DNA from: Apostichopus japonicus
Lineage: Eukaryota; Echinodermata; Holothuroidea; Aspidochirotida; Stichopodidae
Reading direction: 5' to 3'
Assembly: GCF_037975245.1 (NCBI RefSeq)
Contig: NC_092575.1
Location: 3,043,001 to 3,107,000 of the forward strand
DNA: 64,000 bases
Position 1 is the first letter of the stretch. Each line of letters opens with the position of its first letter. Shown here in pieces: positions 58,748 to 61,700 of the stretch. The notes under the pieces are model-generated. The model was not told the DNA's origin and ran no database searches. It worked only from the letters and a program-made list of their open reading frames with translations. The position numbers and the translations under genes were made by a program.

Positions 58748-61700
58748 CTATGAATAAGTCCCTGAAATGAAGAAGAAGATCAAAATTAAAAATATAGAAA
58801 AAAAATTCTTAAAATTTATTCCTCTTGATGTAAAACTTAACTGAAGTAATCATTAAGTCTTTTATAGATTTAAAAAAAAAAAATAATATATATGATTGAG
58901 TTGTATTGTAATAATAAAGAACTCACAAAATTATCATGTCTATTTGTATAAATGTCAAATGAGTCAATAAAAGAGATGGAAAAAAAAAAAAAAAAAGATT
59001 TTAAAAATATATAAAAATTTCAATGCTTGTGAAATGTATCACACTGACCTCTACGGTGGCTTAGTAGGGACATAGCAGAAGAAAAAATTGAGATTAAAAA
59101 TCAAAATTTTGACTTTTTAACTGACAATTTTGCGATTTGGGGACACTTTTTTTTCACTGTCCCTATTAAGCCACCGTAGACCACAGAGTCCCAGTTTCAT
59201 AGGTTTTTTTTCCTTTGTTGAGATGTAAGATACATTTTACTTCTGTCACATTATTTCCTGTCCTCCACAAGGATCTGTAAACGTCATGCCAGGACTAAAA
59301 ACATCGGCGGCCCCTTTATATGTTTTCTCGTACGTATGAAATTAATATACGTCTCTGAAACATGGTTAAACTGTAGGACAAGATACTAATAAAAGGCATT
59401 GACCAATGTCCCTGCTAACCTGGACAATCAATGTGCGCCAAAAATGCCCTGCCCACGCCCCCTCCCCATATCCAAATACGTGTGCCTCAACTTCGTAAGG
59501 GTACGCAGACCCGAAAATATCGGCGGCCCCTTTATATGTTTTCTTGTACGTATGAAATTAATATACGTCTCTGAAACATGGTTAAACTGTAGGACAAGAT
59601 ACTAATTAAAGGCACTGACCAATGTCCCTGCTAACCTGGACAATCAATGTGTGCCAAAATGCCCTGTCCACGCCCCCTCCCCATTTCCAAATATGTGTGC
59701 CTCAACTTCGTAAGGGTACGCAGACCCAAAACCCGACAGCCACATTGAATGATGGTTATATTAACTTCCACTTGAACCACATACTGATGGCACTGACGAT
59801 CACATCGCATAGCGGGAAAAGTTTTGGCATTTCGATTGTTAGGGAGGACGGGAAAAAGTCTCTGTAACCTTAAAACTGAATTTACAAAGAGATGACTAGC
59901 TGCCAACTAACTCTAACACTGTAAGGGATACACTTAGCCTAGACACATTGAAAGATTATGGTAACTTTCAAAAACCTATTTAGATTTCCCCAATTGTCTA
60001 CGTGGTCAAAAGGTTAGTTGGCTCTACTGGTACAATTTTAATTTGCAGCCTACCATTATAAAATAAACATCAGAAAAAAAAGGAAAAAACCATCTTTCCT
60101 GCTTGTAAATTCTGTCTACCTTCAACCATCTGATCTATCTTCTTCAAGTCAAGGAAGGGACATTATTTACTCTCACTCCCCCATCCCATTACCCCTTCCC
60201 GCCCCCCCCCCCCCCCCCCGCAAGCAAAATGTGGTTATGATTACATACCATCTGCCGCCGTTTGTGTAGTAAATTCCCGTGCTTCATCAAAGATCATTCT
60301 CTTTAACGTCTCCTTTGGCAGATCGTCAAGTTCAGTCTCAAAGCTGAAGGGCTTTTCTGAGACCGGCTGTAAGAGATGTTTCAAGCAAGTTCTCTGAGTT
60401 TGGTCAAGCAATCTTACCAAAAACCCTCACCTTGTAATACTTCAGAATGAGAGAGCAATTTTAGCAACCTAAGACTCCCTCCTGGATTATTCCATCGACC
60501 ACATGAGCAGGCTTACATTTCATTTTTCCGACATTTCATTTACCCATGTGCTATTCATATCTCTATTATCCATTACAGAAACAAAACTCAAAATTTGCCA
60601 ATCGTTAACATTTTACCTACCGTCCCAATTTCATTAATTCAAATAAAAGATTGATTGACAGGATAAGTTCATGAACTACCAGAAATGGATCAGAGGAAAC
60701 TTAAAAAGTGTTGCTTTCGCGTCAAGACATCTCCACCATCATGTTGGATTAGTCTGCAAGATATTTGACACGAAGCTGCGCTCACGACGTGTCTAATGTG
60801 AGCCAAACAACAAACAACTTAACTCTAAACACCGAGTGAGCCAGGGTTCTTCTTGCTCTCACCGATACCTCTCAAGATCTATCAACTTTACTATATAACT
60901 GTCATACCACTTGCTACACATTCATTTCTTATTTACGGCTTGGCTTGCCTATAAAGAGTGGTTATTCTGTGTAAATTGTCAGATTCAAAGCACCAGGGGT
61001 GCATTCTGTACAATCATAACACTTGGGTCATAACGCCCTCAATGACAGTTATACTAAGCCAATTTATACGCATTCACACACCAGTGATTCACTGTGGTCG
61101 AGTGGTAAGGACTTCGGTTCGTGACACAAGATCCGGGGGTCCGATTCCTACCTTCGCCTGATGAGTCCCAAAAGGATGAAACTGGTCGTAAAGTGGAATT
61201 TTTCTGGTGTGTTGTTCTTTATTTATTTAGTATATATCTGTCATACCACTTGCTACACATTCATTTCTTACATACATATATATATAGATACTGTGTTTAT
61301 AAAAGATAACTTATCAATTACCTCATCAGCTGGGTCATAATATTGCTCCAAGTAGGGATGAGCTAAAGCTTCTTCCACTGTTATCCTCTCATTGGGGTTA
61401 AAGGTCAACATTCTACCCAATATATCCAAACCTGTTTCATAGAATGGAGAAGAATAAGGAATGACGAAACATTGCGACAATGTTCAACCTATCATTACAT
61501 GATTTATGGATGACTTATTATAGGCAGTTGTTTATGTCTTGATATGCCATATCCTCAGATGTTAAAACGGTCATTTCTCAACAAAACAAAATTATACGTG
61601 GTAAGGAACTACATGCCTGGTTGGACAGCAATGATCATATCATAAAGTAAAAATCTAAAACATTTCAAAATTAAGTTTTTGCTTACACTACTCCTTTATT

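Follow-up and report, generated by a model that had tools for sequence, protein, structure and literature searches.

The question raised by this 64,000-nucleotide stretch of Apostichopus japonicus DNA (contig NC_092575.1; "the window" in what follows) is what kind of mobile element lies at 60887-61270, and by which machinery it was put there. A preliminary description of the window had noted, at 61087-61200, a hammerhead-like ribozyme directly downstream of RNA polymerase III (Pol III)-type boxes, and had proposed a short interspersed element (SINE) whose transcript could cut itself, removing its tRNA-like head from its tail. That interval does hold the head and the ribozyme, but it is only part of the element, and we think it likely that the whole is a copy of a new animal retrozyme family (of the kind without long terminal repeats, non-LTR), tRNA-promoted and mobilised by Penelope-like machinery. 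The polymerase that transcribes animal retrozymes and the reverse transcriptase (RT) that mobilises them are the questions addressed here, through a retrozyme with a recognisable promoter-like head and with a 3'-end anatomy common to the Penelope-like elements of the same genome.

That the hammerhead at 61152-61193 is real we regard as practically certain, judging from sequence comparison. In the alignment to RF00163 (the Rfam type I hammerhead) it consists of stem I (61152-61157 with 61188-61193), CTGATGA (61158-61164), stem II (GTCC/GGAT, 61165-61168 with 61174-61177, around the loop CAAAA, the whole hairpin being 61165-61177), GAAA (61178-61181) and a palindromic stem III hexamer (61181-61186), all on the forward strand, as are the other features of the element; the predicted cleavage site falls between C17 and the next base, at 61187/61188. 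The words on which the preliminary description relied (A box, B box, CTGATGA, the GTCC/GGAT hairpin, GAAA and the UC context) are all where it had placed them, and the covariance model by which it proposed to check them scores 29.1 bits here, with an E-value of 3.7e-5 over 501 nt and of 0.0047 over the whole 64 kb, the lowest listed in the window. The bare core pattern is at chance level (7 hits in the window for 3.8 expected, a number reached by 8 of 100 shuffles), and so is the folding energy (z +0.99), so that it is the covariance score and the relatives that carry the case. The window copy is decayed: the flanking six-letter stretches proposed as stem I, CTTCGC and GTAAAG, mostly do pair, but with one C-A mismatch and one G-U, where most relatives carry GTGAAG and have no mismatch; a G-U pair also stands at the foot of stem II, and the core is intact.

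These relatives come from the same genome (671.6 Mb in 35 contigs). Searching it with the hammerhead family gave 66,307 first-look candidates, of which 74 were scored and 69 listed as matches; 50 of the matches reach at least the gathering score of 34 bits, the best at 46.7 bits; none of the 14 control genomes rises above that cut-off. The best 30 loci all carry the same ribozyme as the window element, and an Rfam scan of 20 of the first 30 loci finds a hammerhead in every one, over the RF00163 gathering score in 5. Collecting genomic copies, as had been suggested, has thus yielded sister copies with an intact ribozyme.

Taken as a whole, the element very likely represents a family of tRNA-headed retrozymes with a type I hammerhead, non-LTR by its ribozyme, unit size and tandem build. 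The window copy is 384 nt long, a full 339-nt monomer followed by 45 nt of another (1.13 monomers in the monomer alignment of the loci), and the same 45 nt, monomer positions m1-m45, therefore stand at both of its ends, at 60887-60931 and at 61226-61270 (96% identity, spacing 339 nt). Units are 335-339 nt long with a GC content of 0.39-0.43 (five units), arrays elsewhere reach up to 3 units at a spacing of about 337-345 nt, and 32 of 76 distinct pieces are longer than one monomer (the longest has 1011 nt). When the genome was searched with the 124-nt region, 40 of 904 first-look candidates were scored and 44 matches listed, which are 90-94% identical, the self match aside. Together with the hammerhead search, this one finds matches on 23 of the 35 contigs. 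A shorter monomer of 205 nt, which keeps the head and the ribozyme, lies beside another copy at four places on one contig, C9 (L009-L012). Circular folding of five units gives z from -0.03 to -1.49, a weak result as regards a stable circular fold. Of the proposed self-cleaving SINE, one part therefore stands, a Pol III-type head fused to a hammerhead in a dispersed retroelement; the simple head-plus-tail design does not, the unit being a monomer of about 339 nt in partial tandems. It follows that the job of the ribozyme is likely to be the cutting of multimers into unit-length RNAs for circles, and not the separation of head from tail.

Within the family, the majority sequence of the ribozyme reads CUUCGC-CUGAUGA-GUCC-CAAAA-GGAC-GAAA-CCGG-UC^GUGAAG, with AUUCC/GGAAU as an outer stem I; the exact core is kept in 63 of 82 copies and the stem III hexamer is self-complementary (wobble allowed) in 72 of them, in a set partly chosen for the ribozyme, and the core is intact in 15 of 28 copies that were not chosen for it. 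The hexamer, ACCGGU, is a poor hairpin closer and pairs with itself, and a ribozyme with so palindromic a stem III should work as a dimer. Two-strand folding of the copies L057 and L031 points to the same mode of action, the double hammerhead being the predicted minimum-energy structure (for L057, -40.3 kcal/mol, compared with 2 x -18.1 for two single strands). An exact search of viral contigs for 30 letters of the ribozyme gave 0 matches.

The head is a more delicate matter. Its A box, TGGTCGAGTGG, lies at 61095-61105 and has 8 of 8 specified letters; its B box, GGTCCGATTCC (family majority GGTTCGATTCC), lies at 61138-61148 with 9 of 10, and the ribozyme begins 46 nt after the former and 3 nt after the latter. 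A scan of both strands of the 64 kb, at this stringency or with one A-box letter looser, found this pair and no other at tRNA spacing. The last 5 letters of the B box double as the outer strand of stem I of the ribozyme, since ATTCC at 61144-61148 is able to pair with GGAAT at 61195-61199. A five-T run, possibly a Pol III terminator, follows just past the ribozyme at 61199-61203. Conservation of the head was judged on 30 loci chosen only for the upstream part m1-m200, of which 2 were dropped as belonging to the same array; of the resulting 28 copies (window copy included), 24 have the A box pattern, 20 the B box and 18 both, and 17 have at least four T at the place of the T run. For divergence, 6 more loci with broken downstream parts were dropped and CpG sites left out; in the remaining 22 copies, the A box and three other 11-mers share the lowest divergence of all 327 monomer windows. 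The B box does not stand out (24th percentile), and the stretch that runs from the one box to the other ranks in the bottom 1% for windows of equal length. Among the 30 best hammerhead loci, L034 and L058 have other sequence in place of the head, and a few more, such as L032 and L042, carry a changed version of it. From these sequence patterns, we would put the use of the head by Pol III at even chances.

The new part of the finding is the integration signature. It was read from pieces in loci picked either for the head-plus-ribozyme region or the ribozyme (L001-L060) or for m1-m200 (L061-L090), a choice that biases both piece length and the crossing of the cut site. Once pieces shorter than 100 nt, with more than 80% AT or close to the end of a locus had been removed, 101 were left, of which 76 are distinct, in 70 loci. 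Their 5' ends are variable. Their 3' ends fall within two zones in 52 of the 76 (6.5 expected by chance), 35 in m1-m15 and 17 in m37-m50, the other 24 lying outside both; only 3 of the 76 have a 5' end in these zones. The peaks are at m11 (25 pieces) and m49 (7 pieces), 38 nt apart and thus 49 and 87 nt past the cut, and the zone-ended share is 16/32, 23/25 and 13/19 in the three locus sets. The 3' overlap of the window copy, at 61226-61270, carries both zones, the copy ending at m45.

The DNA beyond these ends is also peculiar. Within 60 nt beyond the 3' end, 40 of the 52 zone-ended pieces have a (TA)n run of at least 12 letters, against 4 of the remaining 24; beyond the 5' end such a run is present in 16 of all 76 pieces. 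With a 16-letter run, counted in 52 loci (8 of 60 having been dropped as duplicates), the figures are 36 loci on the 3' side and 12 on the 5' side, compared with 16 of 763 control windows taken from these loci and 3 of 1066 taken from the 64-kb window. Directly 3' of the window copy itself there is a TA-rich stretch, at 61273-61290, whose longest run of 10 letters is under the counting threshold. Moreover, the element is bordered on its 5' side by an inverted fragment of itself in 11 of the 70 loci, and on its 3' side in none (P 6e-4); these are counts by locus, and with three head-to-head pairs counted from both sides there would be 14 pieces. The predicted cut site is crossed by all 52 zone-ended pieces and two cut sites are crossed by 11, in part an effect of selection because most loci were found through the ribozyme; such crossing suggests a template RNA that was uncut or rejoined, i.e. 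multimeric or circular. Ends at the predicted cut site itself (5' ends at m303-m305, 3 of 76) are too few to use, and no empty insertion site was found among the fetched loci. We also considered whether growth of a microsatellite inside the monomer could have created the m11 end, and rejected this because, in the copies inspected, the sequence that follows the (TA)n is not the rest of the monomer.

Could the machinery responsible be present in the same genome? A search for the GIY-YIG domain lists 37 matches, and two loci, L091 and L092, have stop-to-stop frames of 910 and 835 amino acids, each with an RT and a GIY-YIG domain, the build of a Penelope-like element; L091 is a partial tandem and L092 belongs to another Penelope-like family. 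We compared the 3' ends of these two loci and the 251-nt stretches downstream of 18 of the 37 matches. In 16 of these 18 further copies a (TA)n of at least 14 letters stands at the junction (L104 and L105 have no such end in the stretch), and it starts at the 3' end of the element and runs to as many as 87 units (L093-L103 and L106-L110). Ten of the 16 ends lie at or near ...TTTTTCTAC, five at or just past ...ACATTGCC and one elsewhere, the two sites being 31 nt apart; L091 ends at the second site, ...ACATTGCC, and L092 also runs into (TA)n. The retrozyme signature (two 3' ends 38 nt apart, (TA)n, partial tandems, inverted 5' pieces) is therefore matched by the local Penelope-like elements in paired 3' ends, (TA)n and, for L091, tandem build, inverted pieces having been scored in the retrozyme only. 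These Penelope-like marks on a noncoding ribozyme repeat suggest which machinery copies such elements, and judged on sequence we hold it quite likely that the retrozyme is moved by Penelope-type machinery. The two loci with long open frames would then provide a matched candidate helper and client in one genome.

In one retrozyme locus, a fragment that by eye resembles the Penelope-like 3' end of L092 lies between retrozyme pieces and has its own (TA)n (L046:1925-2105).

Several results weigh against our interpretation, and it is fair to state them together. The default Rfam scan of the window is empty, because the 29.1 bits of the hammerhead lie under the gathering score. In two-strand folding the window copy does not form the dimer; folded as single strands, four ribozyme stretches do not exceed shuffled sequences in stability, and L018 lacks the ribozyme fold. 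Covariation in the stems, which the preliminary description had put forward as a check, gave no support (2 of 17 pairs change on both sides, matched by 184 of 500 shuffles), and the ribozyme shows no greater conservation than the monomer around it (permutation 0.38; 74th percentile); with copies only about 5% from their majority, both tests carry little information. ARAGORN finds no tRNA in the window, and the Rfam tRNA model RF00005 has no match on the head, either in the window or, at E-values up to 1, in the scanned loci, while it does match other stretches in those loci. The T run would stop Pol III at about 120 nt, short of one monomer, so that full monomers would need read-through. No consistent target-site duplication (in animal non-LTR retrozymes these, when present, exceed 4 bp) was seen in 41 copies inspected, (TA)n obscuring the junctions. 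There is no significant likeness between the 3' sequences of the retrozyme and those of the Penelope-like elements (P 0.105 for the tails, 0.54 for a longer stretch, 0.28 for L092), and what we claim is therefore a shared anatomy, not a shared sequence; nor is a hammerhead seen in the two Penelope-like loci read, L091 and L092. Finally, long interspersed elements (LINEs) also leave fixed 3' ends and 5' inversions.

How far do these points favour other explanations? We give almost no credence to a chance resemblance to a hammerhead in some decayed repeat: it would agree with the sub-gathering score of the window copy, the chance-level pattern count and folding energy and the lack of covariation, but it is ruled out by the sister copies at or above the gathering score (34 to 46.7 bits, the 30 best with the same ribozyme), and the dimer is the predicted minimum-energy structure in two natural copies. 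More attention is due to the possibility of a conventional SINE, derived from a tRNA and spread by a LINE. Its Pol III transcript of about 120 nt, from the A box to the T run, would cut itself and lose its U tail, and the A and B boxes and the T run do flank the ribozyme; fixed 3' ends with variable 5' ends, such as we observe, are moreover usual for LINE-driven elements. However, the 52 zone-ended pieces extend 23 to 72 nt past the T run and 32 of 76 pieces exceed one monomer, so that the RNA that was copied is not this short transcript, and partial tandems with two 3'-end zones are, to our knowledge, not habits of SINEs. Tandem units and 3' ends beyond the T run rule out the simple form of this model, and we find the model in general improbable. 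We consider even less probable that the repeat is satellite-like and was spread by DNA-level recombination between (TA)n microsatellites, with the hammerhead as a passenger. Tandem monomers, (TA)n at many junctions and a ribozyme without extra conservation are what one would expect in that case; the single and partial copies are nevertheless dispersed, with matches on 23 of 35 contigs, the (TA)n is one-sided and the inverted pieces are at the 5' end only, and neither the 50 matches at or above the hammerhead gathering score nor the core kept in 15 of 28 copies not chosen for it speaks for a passenger.

The most serious competitor, unlikely as we judge it, accepts the retrozyme as we describe it and has it moved by a LINE, the shared (TA)n being a common insertion preference. 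The 5' inversions known from LINEs and the lack of likeness between retrozyme and Penelope-like 3' sequences would agree with it, as would the Nematostella hammerhead repeats, which, in the part of PMC4918200 consulted, are said to have 15-bp target duplications like those of LINEs. Yet it is in the local Penelope-like elements that the paired 3' ends and the (TA)n recur, with a tandem in L091, and paired ends, partial tandems and inverted 5' pieces are all in print for Penelope-like elements (PMC11167929 and excerpts of PMC3846280).

For a tRNA-promoted retrozyme mobilised by Penelope-like machinery, we infer the following cycle. Transcripts of monomer arrays would arise at the internal promoter or by read-through; in them, hammerheads would dimerise two by two and cut the RNA to unit lengths, the ends of which might be sealed into a circle by a host ligase of the RtcB type. 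A Penelope-like RT/GIY-YIG enzyme of the same genome would then begin cDNA synthesis on TA-rich DNA, at one of two sites within the RNA (49 or 87 nt beyond the cut), and copy round the template; the 5' ends of the products would vary, and partial tandems and, at times, an inverted fragment at the 5' end would result. One could go further and imagine a Penelope-dependent, tRNA-promoted circle element, in which the B box, being also a strand of stem I, would make promoter and ribozyme evolve as one, and the circular RNA would be the true template; the telomerase-related Penelope enzyme would start at two internal sites and add (TA)n by repeated copying of a short UA template, for the retrozyme as for its own elements. 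This extended version is a speculation that we doubt.

How does this element compare with those already known? Penelope-like elements and retrozymes, the relatives named in the preliminary description, are in our judgement the relevant ones, and the minimal stem III of the type I hammerhead is real. Animal non-LTR retrozymes are described, in excerpts of PMC7229834, as type I hammerheads in low-GC repeats of about 170-400 nt, from dimers upward, and axolotl hammerheads with a one-pair stem III and a palindromic tetraloop as behaving as dimers. The present element is like them in its type I hammerhead, unit size, low GC, tandem repeats and weak palindromic stem III, whereas the fusion of a tRNA-like head with A and B boxes to the ribozyme is a feature of its own. 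Penelope-like elements have been proposed there as helper of animal retrozymes because the two have features in common and co-occur (Cervera and de la Pena 2020, PMC7229834, same excerpts); the comparison of insertion anatomy with the host's own Penelope-like elements is what our analysis adds. The same excerpts report hammerhead satellites of newt and axolotl with a unit of about 330 nt, a one-pair stem III, a palindromic loop and a dimeric ribozyme, thus alike in unit size and ribozyme type; in contrast with the Pol III-type head found here, a term search of PMC7229834 gives no mention of Pol III, and "promoter" only in connection with cloning.

As for promoters, retrozymes seemed to lack them according to part of a 2020 review (PMC7761336), and later abstracts report a promoter in the LTR of a Nicotiana benthamiana retrozyme (PMC9695139, PMC12029980). 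The nearest precedent is to be found in the schistosome elements Sm-alpha and Sj-alpha, which the sections consulted of PMC2770079 and PMC4918200 present as tRNA-derived, hammerhead-bearing and SINE-like, with a monomer of about 335 bp (PMC8490949, likewise in part). They join a tRNA and a hammerhead, so that the combination has precedent, and the unit size is alike, a likeness by description only; as far as these partial accounts go, their tRNA is a full tRNA-Gln, whereas the head here is degenerate and missed by tRNA models. In a literature search, mostly of titles and abstracts, we came across no retrozyme with a tRNA or Pol III head other than those of schistosomes, and no account that proves a Penelope helper for retrozymes.

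For the insertion process itself, the best guide is the element PAc of Anolis (PMC11167929), whose reverse transcription starts inside the RNA downstream of the hammerhead, at two start sites that define a 30-40-bp tail; its targets are AT-rich and its copies partly tandem. PAc ribozyme mutants still insert in vitro, and uncut RNA has been suggested as the main substrate (PMC11167929), so that cutting by the hammerhead need not be part of insertion. Penelopes of bdelloid rotifers, in excerpts of PMC3846280, have inverted 5' pieces and sometimes no target duplication. As far as these sources go, the retrozyme resembles hammerhead-bearing Penelope-like elements in its paired 3' ends at a distance of 30-40 nt, in the AT-rich DNA around it, and in the occurrence of partial tandems and of inverted pieces on the 5' side; it differs from them in being noncoding and 339 nt long, with a canonical type I hammerhead. 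A 339-nt unit has no room for an RT and a GIY-YIG domain, and the Penelope-like elements are therefore separate loci (L091, L092).

Some further features should be mentioned. Rfam tRNA matches of 33 to 52 bits lie near retrozyme copies at L002:1219-1290, L014:1779-1851, L014:2152-2224 and L028:2515-2587, and are probably the heads of a separate SINE family. L029:1705-1816 holds a hairpin of 109 nt, almost without a flaw, for which either strand gives a match to the MIR4387 model (74.8 bits, where the cut-off is 84); it is more likely a foldback mobile element than a microRNA. In the window, exons resembling those of an ERK-type kinase lie on the reverse strand at 60244-63777; we take them, from the protein sequence, to be those of an ERK-like kinase gene, and the retrozyme sits between two of them, antisense to the gene. 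Elsewhere in the window there are a 17-bp minisatellite of 53 units at 22748-23657, open in three reverse-strand frames, and twelve 72-bp tandem units with 95% matches at 4252-5119.

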